Assembly (NCBI GenBank): GCA_900546775.1 | Contig: UREM01000024.1 | Coordinates: 1-30,094, forward strand | From: an uncultured Collinsella sp. | GTDB lineage: Bacteria; Actinomycetota; Coriobacteriia; Coriobacteriales; Coriobacteriaceae | Direction: 5' to 3' | Length of the DNA: 30,094 bases | Made by a program: the position numbers and the translations under genes | The notes under the pieces: generated by a model | What the model was told of the DNA's origin: nothing | What the model saw: only the letters and a program-made list of their open reading frames with translations | Database searches by the model: none | In this document: positions 562 through 24,164 of the stretch, one piece after another | Layout: every line of letters starts with the position of its first letter | Position numbering within the stretch: position 1 is the stretch's first letter

Positions 562-2295
562 ATGGCTACAGAAAAGTCCTCTTCGCGCTCATGGATGTCC
601 GATGCCGCGATTTATCAGATCTACCCGCGCTCGTTTAAGGATTCGACTGGTTCGGGTCTGGGCGATATCGCGGGCATTACCCAGCAGATGGACTATCTTG
701 AGCGGCTGGGTATCGAGGCCATCTGGCTGAGCCCGTTTTACCCATCGCCTCTTGTCGATGGCGGCTATGATGTGGCGGACTACTGCGATGTCGACCAACG
801 TCTCGGCTCGCTTGACGACTTCGATGACATGATCGCCGCGGCTCACACGCGCGGCATCAAGGTCATCGTCGACATCGTGCCCAACCATTCGTCCAACCAG
901 CACCCCTGGTTCAAAGCCGCTCTTGCCGCCGGCCCCGGATCGCCCGAGCGCGCCCGCTATATCTTCCGCGATGGTCGCGGCGAGCATGGCGAGCTGCCTC
1001 CCACCAATTGGAATGCCAACTTTGGCGGCCCCGCCTGGACGCGTGTCGCGGACGGTCAGTGGTATCTGCACATGTTTACGCCCGAGCAGCCGGACTTTGA
1101 CTGGTCATGCCCCGAGGTTCGCGCGTTCTTTTGCGATGTTCTGGCGTTTTGGAGCGATCGAGGCGTCGACGGCTTTCGCATTGATGTGGCACACGGTCTC
1201 GCCAAGGATCTCGACCGCGATGATCTCGACCAGTGGCATCTCGCCGAGGGCGATGACATGGTTGACGACGGCACCCATCCGCTGTGGGATCGCAACGAGG
1301 TTCACGAGATCTATCGCGAGTGGCGCCGCGTGTTCGACCGCTATAATCCGCCGCGCAGCGCTGTTGCCGAGGCGTGGGTGCTGCCCGAGCGCCAGTATCT
1401 CTACGCGCGCCCCAGCGAGCTTGGCCAGACATTTAACTTTGAGTTCGCCAAGGCCACTTGGACCTATGATGACATGCACGCTGCAATCGAGGAGGGCTTG
1501 AAGGCGGCCATCGAATCCGATTCCGCCTCGACCTGGGTACTCTCCAACCACGACGTGCCGCGCGTGGCGACGCGCTATGCCCTGCCGCAAATCAAGGCGA
1601 CGCGCTACCACCAGATTGCGCTTGACTGGCTCTTACGCGACGGGTCGTCTTATGACGAGGACCGTGAACTCGGCGAGCGCCGTGCGCGGGCGGCCCTTTT
1701 GCTCGAGCTGGCGCTTCCGGGCTCGGCATACGTGTATCAGGGTGAGGAGCTCGGCCTTTTTGAGGTGGCTGACATCCCGTGGGCCGCACTCGAAGATCCT
1801 ACTGCGACCAATACGCACGGACCGAAGCGCGAGAAGGGGCGCGACGGCTGTCGTGTGCCCCTGCCGTGGGTGGCGACGGACGATCCCGCGCAGGGCGGAT
1901 CGTTTGGGTTTTCACCGGTGGACGCCGATACGGCGCCCCATCTGCCGCAGCCTGCATGGTTTTCCGATTACGCTGCCGATAGGGAAGAAGCGGACCCGAC
2001 ATCGATGCTTGCGCTCTATCGTGACGCCCTCTGGCTGCGGCGCAAGCTGCGCGGGTGCGCCAACGATCTTGCGTGGCTCGATCTTGACGGGCGCACCGGT
2101 CTTGCGGATGGTGCCGAGGGCGCTAAGGGCGGCGTCATCGCCTATCGTCGCGACAACGGCTGGGCGTGTGTGACGAACTTCGGTGCAGCACCCGTGGAAC
2201 TGCCGGCGGGTAGGGTCCTGCTCACTTCATCACCACTTGTAGACGGTAGACTCGCGCAGGACAGCTCCGTCTGGATCATGCTCGCTGAGTTGTAG
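562..2295 (+). CDS. GH13 alpha-glucosidase (oligo-1,6-glucosidase type)
   Basis: Encodes 577 residues of a glycoside hydrolase family 13 enzyme, which cleaves alpha-glucosidic bonds in short malto- or isomalto-oligosaccharides. The four conserved regions are visible: DIVPNH at 104-109, GFRIDVAH with the nucleophile Asp208, the acid/base Glu270 in VAEAW, and NHD with Asp331. The N-terminal AIYQIYPRSFKDS and the TNWNANFGG segment are typical of alpha-glucosidases rather than alpha-amylases, and the length fits. There is no signal peptide, so it should act on imported sugars in the cytoplasm. The ATG at 562 is chosen because AAGGGAGA lies 9 bases upstream and the family homology begins just after it; an in-frame TTG at 214 lies in tRNA-derived DNA. 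The exact substrate cannot be told. No transporter or regulator gene is adjacent. Confidence 0.9.
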   Translation: MATEKSSSRSWMSDAAIYQIYPRSFKDSTGSGLGDIAGITQQMDYLERLGIEAIWLSPFYPSPLVDGGYDVADYCDVDQRLGSLDDFDDMIAAAHTRGIKVIVDIVPNHSSNQHPWFKAALAAGPGSPERARYIFRDGRGEHGELPPTNWNANFGGPAWTRVADGQWYLHMFTPEQPDFDWSCPEVRAFFCDVLAFWSDRGVDGFRIDVAHGLAKDLDRDDLDQWHLAEGDDMVDDGTHPLWDRNEVHEIYREWRRVFDRYNPPRSAVAEAWVLPERQYLYARPSELGQTFNFEFAKATWTYDDMHAAIEEGLKAAIESDSASTWVLSNHDVPRVATRYALPQIKATRYHQIALDWLLRDGSSYDEDRELGERRARAALLLELALPGSAYVYQGEELGLFEVADIPWAALEDPTATNTHGPKREKGRDGCRVPLPWVATDDPAQGGSFGFSPVDADTAPHLPQPAWFSDYAADREEADPTSMLALYRDALWLRRKLRGCANDLAWLDLDGRTGLADGAEGAKGGVIAYRRDNGWACVTNFGAAPVELPAGRVLLTSSPLVDGRLAQDSSVWIMLAEL

Positions 2296-2395
2296 GGGCC
2301 TCTTGCGGCGAGTTAGCGTTTGCCCGCGCCTTCCGTGGTGGCTGATGTCTTTGCGAGGTTCGCGAGGGCGTCGCAAAACTTTTCAAAAAAAGTTC

Positions 2396-2424
2396 TTGCA
2401 TAGGATGCGGGCATCACGTAAGAT
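2396..2424 (+). promoter_or_regulatory. Promoter of the tRNA-Gly/tRNA-Val unit
   Basis: TTGCAT (2396-2401) and TAAGAT (2419-2424) are separated by exactly 17 bp, and the tRNA begins 13 bases after the -10. An A-run precedes the -35. The -35 matches the consensus only in its first three bases. Confidence 0.65.
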
Positions 2425-2436
2425 TAATCCTCGTAA

Positions 2437-2512
2437 GCGGACATGGCTCAGTTGGTAGAGCACAACCTTGCCAAGGTTGGGGTCGCGGGTTCGAGCCCCG
2501 TTGTCCGCTCCA
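2437..2512 (+). tRNA. tRNA-Gly (GCC)
   Basis: Full cloverleaf: acceptor GCGGACA/TGTCCGC, D-arm GCTC-AGTTGGTA-GAGC, anticodon stem CAACC/GGTTG with anticodon GCC at 2470-2472, T-arm with GGTTCGA, discriminator T and encoded CCA. It reads GGC and GGT codons. It is the intact relative of the partial copy at 1-38. Confidence 0.95.
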
Positions 2513-2515
2513 TTT

Positions 2516-2590
2516 GGGCGTTTAGCTCAGGGGGAGAGCGCTTCCCTGACACGGAAGAGGTCAGAAGTTCAAATCTTCTAACGCCCACCA
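2516..2590 (+). tRNA. tRNA-Val (GAC)
   Basis: Acceptor GGGCGTT/AACGCCC, D-arm GCTC/GAGC, anticodon stem CTTCC/GGAAG with anticodon GAC at 2548-2550, T-arm AGAAG-TTCAAAT-CTTCT, discriminator A and encoded CCA. It lies 3 bases after tRNA-Gly and must be cotranscribed with it. Confidence 0.95.
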
Positions 2591-2599
2591 AATGTTCGC

Positions 2600-2635
2600 A
2601 GCCCAGAGGCTTAGCCTCTGGGCTGTTTTGTTTTT
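2600..2635 (+). terminator. Rho-independent terminator of the tRNA pair
   Basis: AGCCCAGAGGC and GCCTCTGGGCT form a perfect 11-bp stem with loop TTA, followed by GTTTTGTTTTT. Confidence 0.95.
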
Positions 2636-2981
2636 GGTAGCCAAATAGGTTATCAAATTTCAATATCAGCGCCCTTTTACGTTGCCCCACAAGAATCATG
2701 CGAGACGTTTTAAACTTCTCCTTATGCATATTACGATCCTTGCACGGATCAATGGGATGAGCGGTCACGGCAACAAGCGACCGCAACATGTTGGTCAAGC
2801 ATAATCTTTTGGATTCTTTTGGCGTGAGCGGCTTGGTTTTGGTAGGATTTGTCAGCGGCTTGACTAAGGGGGTTTTATAACTGCCATGCAGGTAGCCGTG
2901 TTGGTAACGTTTTACCGACTTGTCCAATGCCCCTCATTTTTAATGCGTCTGCAAAATGACCAATTGCTTTGACCTGCTGAA
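2636..2981. other. AT-richer intergenic stretch, no supported gene
   Basis: This part is clearly more AT-rich than the surrounding genes. A minus-strand open frame crosses it (its start is at 2927), but that frame runs on through the terminator and both tRNA genes, so it is not credible as a whole. Its first 90 or so codons could be the remnant of an old gene; I do not recognise a family in them. Confidence 0.5.
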
Positions 2982-3029
2982 ACACTATATGTTGTGTTTG
3001 ACCTAAAAAAAGAATACAGGATATAGATG
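2982..3029 (+). promoter_or_regulatory. nrdD promoter with NrdR operator
   Basis: ACACTATATGTTGTGT at 2982-2997 closely matches the 16-bp NrdR box (ACACWATATATWGTGT). A second, weaker match (10 of 16 positions) lies at 3014-3029, exactly 32 bp further on; NrdR boxes normally occur in pairs about three helical turns apart. Between and within them lie a -35 TTGACC (2998-3003) and a -10 TATAGA (3022-3027) with 18 bp spacing. NrdR bound to both boxes would flank the -35 and cover the -10, which fits repression of the ribonucleotide reductase when dATP is plentiful. The nrdR gene itself is not in the window. Confidence 0.8.
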
Positions 3030-3033
3030 CGTC

Positions 3034-3254
3034 TTTGTCGTATGATAGATGGCGGACAGAGAACGAAGACCTTAACTGCCTCTTTTGAACGTGTCCCTGA
3101 GCCGCTTGATCGGCTCCTGGGCATGTCCGCATGGAGGCTTATGGTTTATCGAGAACACAGATTGCGCGACGGCGCCGCAAGACAGGGGCAAGCCCTGCCG
3201 GGCATCGTTTGGCTCTGAAGCGCAATGAGGCTACGACGTGAAAGAGGCAAGAGG
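3034..3254 (+). promoter_or_regulatory. Long structured 5' leader of nrdD
   Basis: About 220 bases separate the predicted transcription start from the nrdD start codon. Nested pairings are visible: GAGCCG/CGGCTC (3099-3104 with 3111-3116), extended by CCC/GGG (3095-3097 with 3119-3121), and GCCTC/GAGGC (3078-3082 with 3134-3138). A longer-range GCGGACA/TGTCCGC pairing is an alternative. I found no match to a known riboswitch such as the B12 class. No terminator-like U-run follows the stems. Confidence 0.45.
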
Positions 3255-5477
3255 ATGAAGATCATCAAGCGCAGCGGCACCGAGGTTGTCTTTGACATCG
3301 ATAAGATCGTCAATGCCATCCGCGCCGCCAACTTGGAGGTCGAGGAGAGCTCTCGTCTAACCGACCGCCAGGTGGTTTATGCGGCGCAAAACGTCGCCGA
3401 GGCATGCGAGAACGCGGGCCACACCGTTTCGGTCGAGGAGATCCAGGATTTGGTCGAGGACGAGATCATGCGTCTCGACTGCTACGAGGTTGCCCGCCAC
3501 TACATCATCTATCGCTATGTTCAGAGCCTGAAGCGCCAAAAGAACACGACCGATGACAAGATCCTGTCGTTGATCGAGTGCAACAACGAAGAGGTCAAGC
3601 AGGAGAACTCCAACAAGAACCCGACCGTCAACTCCGTTCAGCGCGACTACATGGCCGGCGAGATTTCCAAGGACCTGACCCAGCGCGTGCTGCTGCCCCA
3701 GGAGATCGTGGATGCCCACAATGAGGGTCTGATCCACTTCCACGATTCGGATTACTTTGCCCAGCACATGCACAACTGCGATCTGGTGAACCTGGAGGAC
3801 ATGCTCCAGAACGGTACTGTTATCTCGGGTACGCTGATTGAGAAGCCGCACAGCTTCTCGACGGCCTGCAACATCGCGACACAGATCATCGCCCAGGTTG
3901 CATCCTCCCAGTACGGCGGCCAGTCCATCTCGCTGACCCATCTCGCCCCCTTTGTTGAGGTGAGCCGTCAAAAGATTCGCGGCGAGGTCGCCCGCGAGCT
4001 CGAGGAGCTCGGTGTTTCCGCATCCCCCGAAAAGGTCCGCGAGGTTGTTGAGGACCGTCTGCGTGACGAGATCCGTCGCGGCGTCCAGACGATTCAGTAT
4101 CAGGTCGTGACCCTTATGACCACCAATGGCCAGGCGCCGTTCGTGACGGTCTTTATGTATCTTAATGAGGCCCGTACGCCTCAGGAGAAGCACGACCTTG
4201 CCATGATCGTGGAGGAGACGCTTCGCCAGCGCTACGAGGGTGTTAAGAACGAGGCCGGCGTGTGGATCACTCCGGCATTCCCCAAGCTTATCTATGTACT
4301 CGAGGACGATAACGTTCACGAGAATTCCCCGTACTTCTACCTGACCCAGCTGGCTGCCAAGTGCACCGCCAAGCGCATGGTGCCCGATTACATCTCCGAG
4401 AAGAAGATGCGCGAGCTCAAGCTGTCGAAGGGCGAGACCGCCGGCAACGGCGACTGCTATACCTGCATGGGTTGCCGCAGCTTCCTGACGCCCGATCGTT
4501 CGGGCAACGGCTTTAACAATGTTGCCAACGCACTGAACTATGACCCGACCAAGCCCAAGTACTATGGTCGCTTTAACCAGGGTGTTGTGACCATCAACCT
4601 GCCCGATGTCGCGCTGAGCTCGCATCAGGACATGGACAAGTTCTGGAAGATCTTCGACGAACGCCTTGAGCTGTGCCATCGTGCCCTGCTGTGCCGTCAT
4701 GAGCGCCTGATGGGCACGCTTTCGGATGCCGCACCGATTCTTTGGCAGTACGGCGCCCTGGCGCGTCTGAAGAAGGGCGAGACGATCGACAAACTGCTCG
4801 TGGGCGGATACTCCACCATCAGCCTGGGCTATGCCGGTCTGTATGAGTGCGTCAAGTACATGACGGGCCACAGCCACACCGAGAAGGAGGGCACGCCCTT
4901 TGCCATGGCCGTCATGCAGCGCATGAACGACAAGTGCGCCGAGTGGAAGGCCGAAAGCGATATTGACTTCTCGCTGTACGGTACCCCGCTTGAGTCGACG
5001 ACCTACAAGTTCGCCAAGTGCCTGCAGCGTCGTTTTGGCATCATCCCGGGCGTGACGGACAAGGGCTACATCACCAACAGCTATCACGTCCACGTGTCCG
5101 AGGAGATCGACGCATTCGACAAGCTCAAGTTCGAGGGTATGTTCCAGCAGCTTTCGCCGGGCGGTGCCATCTCCTACGTCGAGGTTCCCAACATGCAGGA
5201 CAACCTCAAGGCTGTCATTCGCGTGATGCAGTACATCTACGACAACATCATGTATGCCGAGCTCAACACCAAGAGCGATTATTGCCAGGTGTGTGGCTAC
5301 GACGGCGAGATCAAGATTGTCGAGGATGACGGCAAGCTGGTGTGGGAGTGCCCCAACTGCGGCAACCGCGACCAGGAGAAGATGAATGTCGCCCGTCGTA
5401 CGTGCGGCTACATCGGTACCCAGTTCTGGAACCAGGGTCGAACCGAGGAGATCCGCGACCGCGTGCTGCATCTCTAA
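3255..5477 (+). CDS. nrdD: Anaerobic (class III) ribonucleoside-triphosphate reductase
   Basis: 740 residues. It reduces ribonucleoside triphosphates to deoxynucleotides without oxygen, using a glycyl radical and usually formate. Residues 1-95 form an ATP-cone (starting MKIIKRSGTEVVFDIDKI), the allosteric site that senses ATP and dATP. The central 10-stranded barrel follows, with the CYTCMGC cluster at 401-407. The C-terminus has the zinc site C677xxC680...C699xxC702 and the glycyl radical motif RTCGY with Gly718. The ATG at 3255 is preferred to one 30 bases upstream because AGAGG lies 7 bases before it and the ATP-cone begins there. The activase nrdG follows after 426 bases of palindromic DNA, so the two may not share all regulation. 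A 704-codon antisense frame lies opposite; it is a by-product of the codon bias. Confidence 0.97.
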   Translation: MKIIKRSGTEVVFDIDKIVNAIRAANLEVEESSRLTDRQVVYAAQNVAEACENAGHTVSVEEIQDLVEDEIMRLDCYEVARHYIIYRYVQSLKRQKNTTDDKILSLIECNNEEVKQENSNKNPTVNSVQRDYMAGEISKDLTQRVLLPQEIVDAHNEGLIHFHDSDYFAQHMHNCDLVNLEDMLQNGTVISGTLIEKPHSFSTACNIATQIIAQVASSQYGGQSISLTHLAPFVEVSRQKIRGEVARELEELGVSASPEKVREVVEDRLRDEIRRGVQTIQYQVVTLMTTNGQAPFVTVFMYLNEARTPQEKHDLAMIVEETLRQRYEGVKNEAGVWITPAFPKLIYVLEDDNVHENSPYFYLTQLAAKCTAKRMVPDYISEKKMRELKLSKGETAGNGDCYTCMGCRSFLTPDRSGNGFNNVANALNYDPTKPKYYGRFNQGVVTINLPDVALSSHQDMDKFWKIFDERLELCHRALLCRHERLMGTLSDAAPILWQYGALARLKKGETIDKLLVGGYSTISLGYAGLYECVKYMTGHSHTEKEGTPFAMAVMQRMNDKCAEWKAESDIDFSLYGTPLESTTYKFAKCLQRRFGIIPGVTDKGYITNSYHVHVSEEIDAFDKLKFEGMFQQLSPGGAISYVEVPNMQDNLKAVIRVMQYIYDNIMYAELNTKSDYCQVCGYDGEIKIVEDDGKLVWECPNCGNRDQEKMNVARRTCGYIGTQFWNQGRTEEIRDRVLHL

Positions 5478-5488
5478 TAGTCATCCCA

Positions 5489-5626
5489 GGCCGTCCCGTA
5501 GCGAGGCCCCGGACCTTTACTCGCTATTTCGGACAGTCCTGGCTCACGACGGAGACGCCACTGGCGCCTCCTGTTCGTGCGGAACTCATATCGAGTAAAG
5601 GTCCGGGGCCTCGCTACGGGGCGGCC
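5489..5626. repeat. Large palindromic element between nrdD and nrdG
   Basis: The arms 5495-5523 and 5592-5620 are perfect 29-bp inverted repeats (beginning CCCGTAGCGAGGCCCCGG). One T/G wobble then extends the pairing by five more pairs to 5489 and 5626, giving a 35-bp stem. The 68-base interior contains a further hairpin (CGCC/GGCG flanked by GGAG/CTCC). There is no U-run, so it is not an ordinary terminator. It starts 11 bases after the nrdD stop. It looks like a miniature mobile or repetitive intergenic element; transposase genes are absent. Confidence 0.85.
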
Positions 5627-20690: not shown

Positions 20691-20853
20691 GGGTGGCTCC
20701 TTTCATCGGGCTTTTTGCTGATGTTAAAGCGGTGCCGTGACAGCTCGATTTCTGCTGCGTTACGATACGTTCTCGATTGCGATTCCACGATGTTTCGGCC
20801 GCGTGACCATTGTGTTTCGCCTTGCCGGGGCGCTGATGGCGAAAGGAGGGGCC

Positions 20854-22044
20854 GTGCAATACCGCGTTGACCCCAAAAGTGGTAACCGAATATCCGCTCT
20901 GGGTCTGGGCTGCATGAGATTTCCCGGTGCGCCGGGCCATCCGGATGCGAAGACAGCCGATGCCATCATTTCCCGTGCGGTGGAACAGGGGATTAATTAT
21001 CTGGATACCGCGTATCTCTATCCCGGTAACGAGGTGTGCGTGGGCGCCTCACTTGAGCGCTTGGGGCTACGCGACCGGGTGTTGCTGGCGACCAAACTGC
21101 CGCATGCTTCGTGTAAGTGTGCGGAGGATTTCGACCGGTTTTTCGACGAACAACTGCGCCGCCTGCGAACCGATCATATCGACTATTACCTCATGCACAA
21201 CATCACCTCGCCCGCCCAGTGGGAGCGCGTGGTGGCGTTGGGTATCGAGGACTGGATTGCGCGTCAAAAGGTGGCGGGGCGCATTCGCCAGATTGGTTTT
21301 TCGTACCACGGCAGCGCCGCGGACTTCCTCACGATGCTTGACGCGTATGACTGGGATTTTTGCCAGATCCAGTACAACTACGCTGGAGAGCGCTACCAAG
21401 CGGGAACGGCGGGACTCATGGCGGCTGCGGAGCGCGGGCTCGCGGTGTTTGTGATGGAGCCGCTGCTGGGCGGGCGTTTAGCGGGCAAGCTGTCGCCGCG
21501 GGTCCGGGCTGTGCTCGATGACGTACGCGATCCGTACCTGAAGTCGCCGGCTGCTTGGGGCCTTTCGTGGGTGTGGAACCATCCTCAAGTCACGATGCTG
21601 CTTTCGGGCATGACCGATACCGCGCAGGTGGACGAGAACGTGGCATTGGCGGATCGCGCACTGCCGAATTCGATGACGAGAGAGCAGCTCGATACCATCG
21701 CACGTGTGCTGGGAGAGTTTGAGAAATCGAATCGCGTGCCCTGTACGGGGTGCGGCTACTGCATGCCATGCCCCAAGGGCATCAATATTCCCGGCTGCTT
21801 TGGCGCCTACAACGCGAGCTATGCGCACAGCTGGTTTACGGGCCTGTCTCAATACTTTACGGCGAGCGCGGTGCGGACGAACGAGCCCAAGCTGGTGAGC
21901 AATTGCGTCAAGTGCGGCAAATGCGCACGTCACTGCCCGCAGCACATCGATATTCCCGAGCGTCTCGACGATGTGCGCCGACGTTTCCAGCCTGGCCCCG
22001 TAACGGCTGCGCTTAAAGCCTTTTGCAAAACGCGCTCCTCATGA
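20854..22044 (+). CDS. Aldo/keto reductase with ferredoxin-type C-terminus
   Basis: 396 residues. An (alpha/beta)8 barrel aldo/keto reductase, N-terminal, is shown by LGLGCMRFP, the LDTAYLYPG (catalytic Asp/Tyr), LLATKLP (catalytic Lys) and YYLMHN (catalytic His). Residues about 320-396 carry two 4Fe-4S cysteine clusters, CTGCGYCMPCPKGINIP and CVKCGKCARHCPQHIDIP. Such fusions occur in many anaerobes and may take electrons from ferredoxin rather than NADPH. Start GTG 20854 is preferred: AAAGGAGGG lies 4-5 bases upstream, and the family homology begins there; upstream in-frame starts add no homology. The stop is followed at once by a conserved palindrome. Confidence 0.92.
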   Translation: MQYRVDPKSGNRISALGLGCMRFPGAPGHPDAKTADAIISRAVEQGINYLDTAYLYPGNEVCVGASLERLGLRDRVLLATKLPHASCKCAEDFDRFFDEQLRRLRTDHIDYYLMHNITSPAQWERVVALGIEDWIARQKVAGRIRQIGFSYHGSAADFLTMLDAYDWDFCQIQYNYAGERYQAGTAGLMAAAERGLAVFVMEPLLGGRLAGKLSPRVRAVLDDVRDPYLKSPAAWGLSWVWNHPQVTMLLSGMTDTAQVDENVALADRALPNSMTREQLDTIARVLGEFEKSNRVPCTGCGYCMPCPKGINIPGCFGAYNASYAHSWFTGLSQYFTASAVRTNEPKLVSNCVKCGKCARHCPQHIDIPERLDDVRRRFQPGPVTAALKAFCKTRSS

Positions 22045-22127
22045 CCCTTTTATAACTTGCGGTGGAATAGTTCCTGTTTGCGGCAGAATGGGGCTTAAAC
22101 AGGAACTATTCCACCGCAACTGAAGGG
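22045..22127 (+). repeat. Conserved palindrome, copy 1, covering a Shine-Dalgarno site
   Basis: The arms 22057-22079 (begins TTGCGGTGGAATAG) and 22097-22119 form a perfect 23-bp stem with a 17-base loop. An outer stem CCCTT (22045-22049) pairs with AAGGG (22123-22127) across a small internal loop. AAGGG is part of the AAGGGGG that should be the ribosome binding site for the next gene's GTG at 22135. The outer stem begins right after the stop of the aldo/keto reductase gene. Copy 2 at 23202-23288 shares the stem ends but differs inside. Confidence 0.85.
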
Positions 22128-22134
22128 GGCTGTC

Positions 22135-23153
22135 GTGGGCCATCGGGATTCATGTGATGATTTGCGCGAGGTTCGTTGGGGCGTTTTGGGCGCTGGGCAC
22201 ATTTCGCATCGATTTGCATCGTCGCTCAAGAAGGTCGACGAGGCACGGCTGGTGGCTGCGGCCGGCCGCACTCCTGCACATGTCGAGGAATTTTGTCGAG
22301 CGTTTTCGATTGATGCCGCGCACAGTTATGCCACGGCTGACGATAGCGGCGATGCGGCTTATGATGCGTTGATTGCCGATCCCGATGTCGATGCAATCTA
22401 CTTGGCTTTTCCACATGGCATGCATGCGCATTGGGCTTGTCGGGCACTGCGCGCGGGAAAGGCCGTGCTGTGCGAAAAGCCGGCCGTTTTGAATGAAGAA
22501 GAGGCCCATGCGATCGCCTCTGTTTCCCGTGAGTGCGGTGTGCCGTTTATGGAGGCGATGAAAATCGGTTTTGTCCGATGCATACTCGCGTGAAGGGTTT
22601 GCTTGCGTCGGGCGAGCTCGGCTGTATCGTCTCGATCGAAAGCGTGCAAAAACTCGATTATGGTGAGTCCCCTTCGAGTTATCTGCTCGATCCGTTGCAG
22701 GGTGGCTGTCTATATGACATGGGCTGCTATGCGGTCGGGTGGTTTGAGGATCTGCTTGCGGGTGCGTGCGATGTTTCGTCTCGTGAAGTTCGCTGGCGTG
22801 ACGTATCGGGCGGCCGCGTGGATTGGGCCGATGAGATCCATATGAGTGTCGGCGGTATACCCATTCATATGGTGTACGACGGCAAAGCAGCATATGAAAG
22901 CCGCTTAACGATTGCCTGCGAGCGGGGCTCGTTGGAAATCGAGCGCCTCCATCGCCCCGAGCTCGCCCATGTGAAGTACTCCGACGGTCGAGTGCTCGAA
23001 ATCGACGCCCCGTTTGATGTCGATGATTTCTACGGCGAAATTCAGCATGCGACGCAGCTCGTCCAGACGGGAGAGCTTGAAAGCCCCGTTATGCCTCTTG
23101 CCGCCACGCAGCGCTGCGCGCAGATAATCGATGCGATTCGCTTGACGCTCTAG
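22135..23153 (+). pseudogene. Gfo/Idh/MocA oxidoreductase, split by a frameshift
   Basis: The first part (22135 onward, GTG) reads the Rossmann domain VRWGVLGAGHISHRF and the EKP motif AVLCEKPAVLNEEEAHA, then stops at about 22593. A second frame continues with the C-terminal domain (RFCPMHTRVKGLLASGELG to ...AIRLTL). The two parts join if one A is added to the AAAA at 22561-22564: EAMKNRFCPMHTRV then reads through. A full-length enzyme would have about 339 residues. So this is either a real single-base deletion, a slippage site or a sequencing error. A working-family member lies at 13039-14145. Substrate unknown; dihydrodiol-dehydrogenase-like in type. Confidence 0.8.
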
Positions 23154-23201
23154 GCTGCGGTGCTGGTGCTCAAGGGGGCTCGGCGGACCTTTCCCCTGAT
23201 G

Positions 23202-23288
23202 CCCCTTTTATATCTTGCGGTGGAATACGGTCTGTTTGCGCCAAAATAAGGCACCAATAGACCGTATTTCACCGCAACTGATGAGGGG
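23202..23288 (+). repeat. Conserved palindrome, copy 2, covering a Shine-Dalgarno site
   Basis: The arms 23215-23236 (TTGCGGTGGAATACGGTCTG start) and 23256-23277 form a 22-bp stem in which the only two departures are G/U wobbles. An outer stem CCCCT (23202-23206) pairs with AGGGG (23284-23288), which lies in the GAGGGGGAG ribosome binding site of nfo. Compared with copy 1, the first 13 stem bases are the same and the inner four base pairs differ in both arms, keeping the pairing. Confidence 0.85.
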
Positions 23289-23297
23289 GAGTTGGAG

Positions 23298-24164
23298 ATG
23301 CTGACGATCGGGTGTCACCTATCCACGACGAAGGGCTATCGGGCGATGGGGGAGACGGCGTTGTCCATTGGCGCCAATACCTTTGCGTTCTTTACGCGCA
23401 ACCCGCGCGGTGGCAAGGCAAAAGACCTTGACATGGATGACGTGGCGGCTCTGCGCGAGCTTATGGCGCAAAACGACTTTGGACCGCTGGTGGCGCATGC
23501 CCCGTATACCTATAACCCCTGCTCCGCTAAGGAGCGGGCGCGCGAGTTTGCCTTGGAGGCTATGGCGGAAGATTTGCAGCGTCTGGAAGCACTGCCCGGC
23601 AACTACTACAACTTCCATCCCGGTGCGCATGTGGGACAGGGGGCAGACACCGGCATTCAGATGATTGTCGACACGCTGTGCCAGGTGATGTTTGAGGGCC
23701 AGCAGACGACGGTATTGCTCGAGACCATGGCGGGTAAGGGCACTGAGGTGGGCCGTAGCTTTGAAGAGCTGGCGTGCATTATCGAGGGCGTTGCCGCCAA
23801 GTGTCCAGAGCTGTCCGATAAGCTGGGCGTTTGTTTGGACACCTGCCATGTGAGCGATGCCGGCTACGACATCATCCATGATCTGGACGGCGTACTCGAC
23901 GAGTTCGACCGCGTGGTGGGCATCGATCGCCTGCATGCCGTACACATCAACGATTCGAAGAACCCTTGTGGCGCCCATAAAGATCGTCACGAGTGCATCG
24001 GCAAGGGATACCTTGGCAGCGAGGAATTTGGCGGCGGTATGCAGGTTATGCAGAATATTGTATCGAATAGCCGCTTGCGCGCATTGCCATTTATTTTGGA
24101 GACGCCGAACGAACTTACAGGTTATGCAGCGGAAATTACGCTATTAAGGTCGTTACAGCAGTAA
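23298..24164 (+). CDS. nfo: Endonuclease IV (AP endonuclease)
   Basis: 288 residues. Cuts DNA at abasic sites and removes 3' blocking groups using three zinc ions. The signature segments are [41 protein letters not shown] and [25 protein letters not shown]. Length fits the family. ATG at 23298 with GAGGGGGAG about 7 bases upstream; that site is part of palindrome copy 2, so translation of nfo may be affected by the hairpin. No other repair gene is adjacent. Confidence 0.96.

Follow-up and report, generated by a model that had tools for sequence, protein, structure and literature searches.

A dispersed, REPIN-resembling palindrome family in the Collinsella aerofaciens group

Why should two palindromes with the same ends, and with different but still paired inner stems, stand in front of two successive genes? 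The question comes from a 30,094-nt stretch of DNA from an uncultured Collinsella sp. (the window), in which an earlier note described two such elements, each between a stop codon and the Shine-Dalgarno site of the next gene. The note offered two answers, a structured RNA or a mobile palindrome family, either of which would control translation of the following gene. Our analysis recovers both elements, with shared outer arms, compensated inner stems and cores of 63 nt, among the following features:

20737..22044, plus strand: aldo/keto reductase with a 4Fe-4S domain, the upstream gene; its stop lies 12 nt 5' of copy 1
22057..22119, no intrinsic strand (palindromic): hairpin copy 1, 63 nt, inner class GTTCC/GGAAC
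22120..22129, plus strand: CTGAAGGGGG, conserved CT edge and G-rich flank, doubling as the Shine-Dalgarno-like site of the oxidoreductase
22135..23153, plus strand: oxidoreductase (GFO/IDH/MocA) inside the block, its frame broken in the window
22120..23214, plus strand: inter-hairpin block of 1,095 bp, absent in genome G021, in which the outer flanks meet at a single hairpin
23215..23277, no intrinsic strand: hairpin copy 2, 63 nt, inner class CGGTC/GACCG in the window
23278..23289, plus strand: CTGATGAGGGGG, CT edge and G-rich flank, as at copy 1
23298..24164, plus strand: AP endonuclease 2/TIM barrel family, the downstream gene; start 20 nt past copy 2 according to our own gene caller

Two hairpins and the family to which they belong

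The stem of copy 1 is perfect, with 23 bp and arms separated by 17 nt. Copy 2 has 20 Watson-Crick pairs and the two wobbles described earlier (G.T at positions 9 and 20), but these are not its only irregularities, as there is also a true mismatch at position 23. Both copies fold strongly on either strand, with z-scores of -7.40 (plus) and -6.58 (minus) for copy 1 and of -7.74 (plus) and -7.53 (minus) for copy 2; none of 200 shuffles matches the native fold for either copy on either strand. With their flanks included, the copies repeat each other in direct orientation over 93 nt at 76% identity, and each is followed by CTGA and then a G-rich stretch, with no U-tract.

Both hairpins recur wherever the orthologous site can be read: copy 1 at 20 of 20 sites besides the window (L212 and L213 are unreadable for it) and copy 2 at 21 of 21 (L213 is unreadable). 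The oxidoreductase between them is split in the window into ORFs at 22135-22593 and 22533-23153; its orthologues have a single open frame of 343-370 aa in all 20 examined. Both motifs that we looked for occur in 19 of these 20, and L197 has the first only.

Two further repeats lie elsewhere in the window. The first, at 5489-5626, just past a gene ending at 5477, is an inverted repeat of a different family, with 39-nt arms that are 95% complementary and 60 nt apart; its arm was not found in the compared loci, which had been chosen for other regions. The second consists of identical 38-nt stretches at 1-38 and 2475-2512, the latter overlapping the 3' part of a tRNA (2437-2509), so that the window begins in a tRNA-like 3' end; it may reflect either a tandem tRNA gene or the duplication of an attachment site.

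The hairpins belong to a large family. In the nearest of the genomes compared, G001, the arm TTGCGGTGGAATA gives 51 forward and 53 reverse matches with at most two mismatches, compared to 13 and 27 for reversed-pattern controls. A covariance model built from 29 copies finds the family in 23 of the 43 genomes searched from the genus, abundantly in 22; the remaining one, G013, gives two rows that are one palindrome. Across 65 family genomes, the same 23 are positive, and none of the 22 from five other genera is. Among the matches listed, the 22 genomes carry roughly 18-48 copies each (37-96 rows) in searches that count every palindrome on both strands and whose stricter filters miss weak matches. 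The exact-arm pattern occurs in at least 120 stretches of a public species set, of which, among the matches listed, 119 carry the name Collinsella and one that of an uncultured Coriobacteriales bacterium; an exact pattern gives 18 copies in G003 and 36 in G024. We rejected a phage origin, given that there are no exact matches among viral contigs.

The build of the element is strikingly uniform in length: the length is 63 nt in 188 of the 196 distinct copies, 62 nt in seven and 61 nt in one. At its ends the family reads TMAG|TTGCGGTGRAATA and the complement of this. Stem positions 14-18 fall into the classes GTTCC, GGGAC, CGGAC, CGGTC and, more rarely, AGGAC; the centre varies freely. The flanks are C-rich for 8-12 nt before the hairpin and G-rich for 8-12 nt after it. 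Clustering along the genome is weak, with six hairpin pairs less than 4 kb apart in G024 where 2.17 are expected at random (P 0.015) and a single such pair in G003 (P 0.42). The lone hairpin of G013, outside the hairpin-rich group, is found at L071:1055-1690 between two apparent gene fragments, the 5' part of the FMN oxidoreductase gene and the 3' part of the one that follows; this arrangement suggests that a short piece was recently imported.

Fixed length, many copies and restriction to one group, as seen in the genome search and with the covariance model, bear out the idea of a mobile palindrome family as far as the family itself goes. It is non-random and has multiplied in the Collinsella aerofaciens group, to which the window, judging by similarity, probably belongs as well; none of the papers listed in our searches of open-licence literature deals with these repeats.

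Placement of the hairpins and their possible roles in RNA

If the hairpins masked ribosome binding sites, they should stand close to start codons. Among the 196 copies, a set that includes orthologues, and with approximate gene calls from our own hexamer caller, 72 are convergent, 89 co-directional, 12 divergent and one intragenic, and 22 lie near a record end. The median distance from a copy to a 3' end is 26 nt, with 152 of 248 measured ends within 40 nt; to a start it is 140 nt, with only 12 of 120 measured starts within 40 nt. Compared with expectations from intergenic length in the loci picked by exact arms, 111 hairpins are found in convergent gaps 41 times (13.7 expected), in co-directional gaps 61 times (68.0 expected) and in divergent gaps 9 times (29.3 expected). 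This placement is the opposite of what masking a ribosome binding site requires; the convergent enrichment counts against translation control because no start follows in convergent gaps.

Selection for an RNA made from the coding strand predicts G.U pairs there instead of A.C. At 55 co-directional sites, we counted 61 G.U and 72 A.C (P 0.39) and rejected such selection; leaving out position 9 gives 49 and 40, and, site by site, 21 have more G.U, 29 have fewer and 5 tie. Within single copies, the non-Watson-Crick pairs keep to one strand in 31 of the 57 representatives, where chance predicts 23.2; this hints, weakly, at folding of one strand at any given site.

The earlier note had also proposed an outer stem that covers the Shine-Dalgarno site. 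Single-sequence folds of both copies do form it, sequestering the G-rich stretch upstream of both starts, but the family shows no clear conservation of it. At 85 site representatives, Watson-Crick pairing of flank positions -3 to -12 exceeds composition at two of the ten (-7 and -10), where the margin is no more than about 0.05, and is at or below composition at the other eight; the expectation was computed for Watson-Crick pairs, and G.T pairs were listed without one. Because these positions pair about as composition predicts, the outer stem is best seen as a matter of composition and not as conserved pairing. Searches against Rfam returned nothing in the window but two tRNAs at gathering score, and at the hairpins only microRNA models below gathering score, the best being mir-633, which scores 40.1 bits where its gathering score is 90.

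These results bear on the translational reading. Viewed alone, the window sites invite it, as their folds hide the sequences upstream of both starts and their wobbles are mostly G.U on the coding strand. At the level of the family, however, a cis-acting riboregulator that masks the ribosome binding site is largely refuted: starts are rarely near a copy, many copies lie between convergent genes, the strand of the wobbles does not track the coding strand, flank pairing follows composition and no Rfam family reaches its gathering score. Indeed, the copies show no link to start codons and treat both strands alike, which is what the earlier note had said would speak against its proposal. We regard the riboregulator as very improbable, and these two hairpins probably do not act as a switch on the gene that follows. 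A local RNA role may still be played in the window, given that most wobbles of its two sites fall on the coding strand.

Placement just past stop codons, with a threefold enrichment in convergent gaps, fits with a hairpin that ends or protects mRNAs from both sides, as a bidirectional terminator or stabiliser, and that spread for this reason. Bacterial intrinsic terminators are stable stems that follow stop codons, often between convergent genes, and that are followed in turn by a U-tract. The family shares the stable, post-stop, often convergent stem but has no U-tract, and its sequence and length are strongly conserved. Stability on both strands and the somewhat one-stranded non-Watson-Crick pairs also favor a 3'-end role, as does the slow evolution of the copy 1 stem compared to its flank and loop: across 21 sequences, pi is 0.014 in the inner stem and 0.079 in the outer arms, but 0.195 in the loop and 0.184 in the left flank. 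In contrast, the U-tract is missing both at the window copies and in the family flank (CTTA, then G-rich), G.U has no coding-strand preference over A.C, and 13 fixed bases are not needed for termination alone. A terminator scan returned no hits; as the loops it accepts are limited to 3-8 nt, it is blind to hairpins with 17-nt loops. We consider a 3'-end RNA element a doubtful candidate; it is in part compatible with the REPIN-like explanation that we develop below.

Stem covariation and probable exchange between copies

What, then, keeps the inner stems paired while their sequences differ? In 29 copies, 46 inner-stem cells are changed on both sides, compared to a mean of 25.6 after shuffling; pairing is 85.3% against 81.2 and the covariation score 0.213 against 0.134. 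There is no excess of pairs changed on both sides (9 against a shuffled mean of 10.0) or of further pair types (29 against 31.6). In a larger set of 257 copies, a GTTCC arm never stands opposite one of the other four named classes, where about 115 such hairpins would be expected under random assortment; one GTTCC arm faces an unclassed arm, and differences of G and C at position 14 do mix.

Comparison of orthologous sites shows how a whole stem can change at once. At the copy 2 site, 7 of 22 sequences belong to the GTTCC class and have a copy-1-like centre, which accounts for an inner-stem pi of 0.294. From their sequence, these hairpins read as products of exchange or conversion between copies 1 and 2, an event that would explain part of what the earlier note called covariation. 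Another swap at a conserved site is seen between L039 and L073, with an identity of 0.88 in the flanks and 0.26 in the loop; loop identity falls below 0.5 in 14 of 256 within-site pairs. The loci for the swap, length and synteny comparisons were picked by exact arms, which inflates arm identity and biases these results.

It is possible, if not the likelier case, that the compensated changes are mutational and were never selected, with template switching or conversion copying one arm from the opposite arm or from another copy. This would be a rival for the covariation alone and is compatible with the REPIN-like explanation. The copy-1-like hairpins at copy 2 are what such copying would produce; so too is the L207 copy 1 site, where the left stem arm contains a short internal duplication that resembles replication slippage. 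At copy 1, however, stepwise wobbles and double changes (TTGTGATGG/TATTTCGTCGCAA) stay paired yet imperfect, and these sequences look like the outcome of selection for pairing. In the REPIN-like explanation, the covariation would come from exchange or conversion between copies together with keeping the hairpin intact, and not from regulation of a downstream start codon.

Bounded blocks, a RAYT-like gene and related systems

Hairpin pairs at most 10 kb apart in one record number 100, duplicate records included. Four distinct blocks bounded by hairpins have one-hairpin alleles, in which the outer flanks lie 55-64 nt apart by alignment; we call a block missing when it is absent in the compared genome, without implying loss or gain. 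The window block is one of them. Its 1,095 bp have equal size in 25 other records (some of which share a genome), and at the G021 junction (L213) a single 63-nt hairpin connects the left flank of copy 1 to the right flank of copy 2. With L207 as the query, no hairpin was scored at this junction; the stem of L207 itself is shifted by its duplication. Two hairpins enclose block 2, of about 798 bp, in L052, L068 and L167; L078 is without it. Block 3, of 3,499 bp, is found in L092 only and is missing in L081, L168 and G001. Block 4, of about 8.35 kb, is carried by G026, G034, G008 and G024; the genomes without it include at least G001, G002, G003, G005, G009 and G035. Pfam identifies KdpC, KdpA and a P-type ATPase domain in this block (the kdp potassium-pump operon), and gene order and reading of the sequence give putative KdpB, KdpD and KdpE.

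Some neighbouring observations concern single loci. The sole gene called in block 3 (L092:653-3637) is a TOTE-type archaeo-eukaryotic primase-helicase by Pfam. L072 keeps the gene of the 798-bp block but is missing the second hairpin and some flank, an unclean presence/absence allele of the element. In L298 (G012), a hairpin at about 1780-1830 is truncated within its right arm, beside a gene (1975-3213) that we take to be a putative IS110-type transposase from its looks; a similar gene also lies near a hairpin in L168.

One bounded gene is also found inverted. This 338-aa gene between hairpins has opposite orientations in L177 and L129 and in L104, L116 and L173; the inverted gene has 80.6-81.8% protein identity to that of L104, and the hairpins are of different class. 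Gene order also breaks on one side at hairpins. Such breaks occur 61 times in 387 comparisons, affect 28 of 117 hairpin junctions and leave the hairpin in place in 57 cases, compared to 23 of 601 at co-directional gaps, 21 of 269 at divergent and 7 of 79 at convergent ones, all of these counts being pooled from non-independent comparisons of hairpin-selected loci. Length comparisons at such loci revealed no clean empty site with a target duplication in 651 cases. The two sites have the same length in 601 of these (112 of which met no copy in the de-duplicated catalogue), and the shorter ones lack more than the hairpin; no insertion or movement of the element was therefore observed among them.

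Do these blocks mean that the palindromes are a dedicated cassette system, that is, genome-wide sites at which a putative recombinase excises, inverts, and inserts or swaps genes and operons without an integron array? The four blocks with one-hairpin alleles, the inverted gene, the frequent gene-order breaks at hairpins and the lack of mixed GTTCC hairpins in the set of 257 would all fit. If this were true, the cassettes would include the window oxidoreductase, the kdp operon, the TOTE-type primase-helicase and further genes. We think it unlikely. Deletion between two repeats yields identical one-hairpin alleles, the synteny data are pooled, non-independent and hairpin-selected, and no recombinase is linked to the sites in our search of the Y1 family. 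The idea that paired hairpins share a class was rejected, as 26 of 59 pairs match and 31.5 would by chance. A gap without a family hairpin is a hot spot too: at the D/E gap of L251, most of the 15 other genomes drawn have extra genes, and this could be a separate insertion hot spot, in which one extra gene reads like a putative phage-type integrase.

The attC sites of integrons invite the same comparison. They are folded palindromes behind genes, with a variable inner part in which pairing is conserved, and they bound cassettes that come and go; their boxes are GTTRRRY (R') and RYYYAAC (R''). The family hairpins are likewise folded, lie behind genes, keep their pairing in a variable inner part and bound genes that come and go. 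By eye, however, their edges (GTTGCGG/CCGCAAC) contain no GTTRRRY/RYYYAAC boxes, and the copies are dispersed, not arrayed.

We find a better candidate for a mobiliser in a RAYT-like protein composed of a Y1_Tnp domain and a C-terminal helix-turn-helix. An orthologue with at least 71% identity is encoded in 21 of the 22 hairpin-rich genomes (G031 has none), and in the other 43 of the 65 family genomes there is none above 53% identity among the matches listed; such co-distribution would also be expected, with no link at all, for any group-specific gene. The neighbouring genes look alike from locus to locus, and a family hairpin is near none of the 21 loci in fetched flanks of up to 1.5 kb. The catalytic tyrosine, the position of which we take by analogy with RAYTs, is kept in 4 of 21 and lost in 17; the HUH pair is kept in 10 and lost in 11. 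The frame is open in the 21 genomes (L303-L323) despite the lost catalytic residues. Judging from these residues, the protein is possibly a non-catalytic DNA-binding descendant; the gene may once have dispersed the family but can hardly mobilise it now in most of these genomes. Its role as mobiliser is unproven, though it is the best candidate. Separately, a copy lies near one (L223) of 29 Y1-transposase loci, which we attribute to chance.

Among known elements, the family most resembles REPINs. PMC3116915 (2011) describes these as REP doublets that form hairpins, with two invariant 16-bp ends, a set spacing and common compensatory changes. The likeness extends to two inverted conserved ends, a spacer, fixed spacing (188 of 196 copies at 63 nt) and a hairpin fold, and to being extragenic (1 of 196 copies inside a called gene), dispersed and present in many copies. 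The family differs in its foot, a TMAG consensus at -4 to -1 in place of GTAG/CGTC, in its RAYT-like loci, none of which (0 of 21, in fetched flanks of up to 1.5 kb) is flanked by a family copy and most of which lack the tyrosine, and in its arms, which by eye are generally not small palindromes themselves. The GTAG/CGTC-tagged REPs associated with RAYT/TIRYT (PMC3733652, PMC6006769, PMC8266576) are likewise short extragenic palindromes with CT beside the hairpin; again the family edge is TMAG. The RAYT-like protein resembles RAYT subclass 2.1 in bearing a helix-turn-helix, and PMC6006769 states that no REP-like sequences were found near that subclass. The main texts of PMC3733652 and PMC6006769 make no mention of Collinsella, Actinobacteria or Coriobacteria. 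Because the GTAG/CGTC tag, a flanking RAYT and insertion alleles were not found, we do not claim that the family belongs to the REPINs.

Taken together, the data are probably best explained by a REPIN-like dispersed palindrome family that was formerly spread by a RAYT/IS200 enzyme and whose copies now recombine, the stem covariation arising from exchange and upkeep of the hairpin. The element consists of two conserved inverted ends around a centre that varies while the total length stays constant, and it sits just behind genes. It would have spread as single-stranded hairpin DNA through a transposase of the RAYT/IS200 kind, and its copies may now recombine, either as ordinary repeats do or through template switching. 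Being palindromic, any two copies are direct and inverted repeats of each other at once, so that the DNA between them can be deleted or inverted. In transcripts, the hairpin would by default be a 3'-terminal stem. This explanation draws support from the fixed length, the 3'-end position and the confinement to one group, from the retained stems, the swaps and the one-hairpin alleles, and from the inverted gene and the RAYT-like orthologue of the hairpin-rich genomes; against it stand the absence of a hairpin near the RAYT-like gene in the fetched flanks, the mostly missing tyrosine, the TMAG edge, the lack of a clean empty site among the sites compared, the two of five stem measures that stay within the shuffles, the choice of loci by exact arms and the weak clustering.

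The palindromes described here form a family in a genus that is common in the human gut. They show that stem covariation and a position before a start codon are not sufficient to call a riboregulator. The RAYT-like protein is a case in which the reading frame is kept while a catalytic residue is lost, and the one-hairpin alleles, the inversion and the swaps provide concrete loci that bear on whether REPIN-like palindromes drive the gain and loss of genes.
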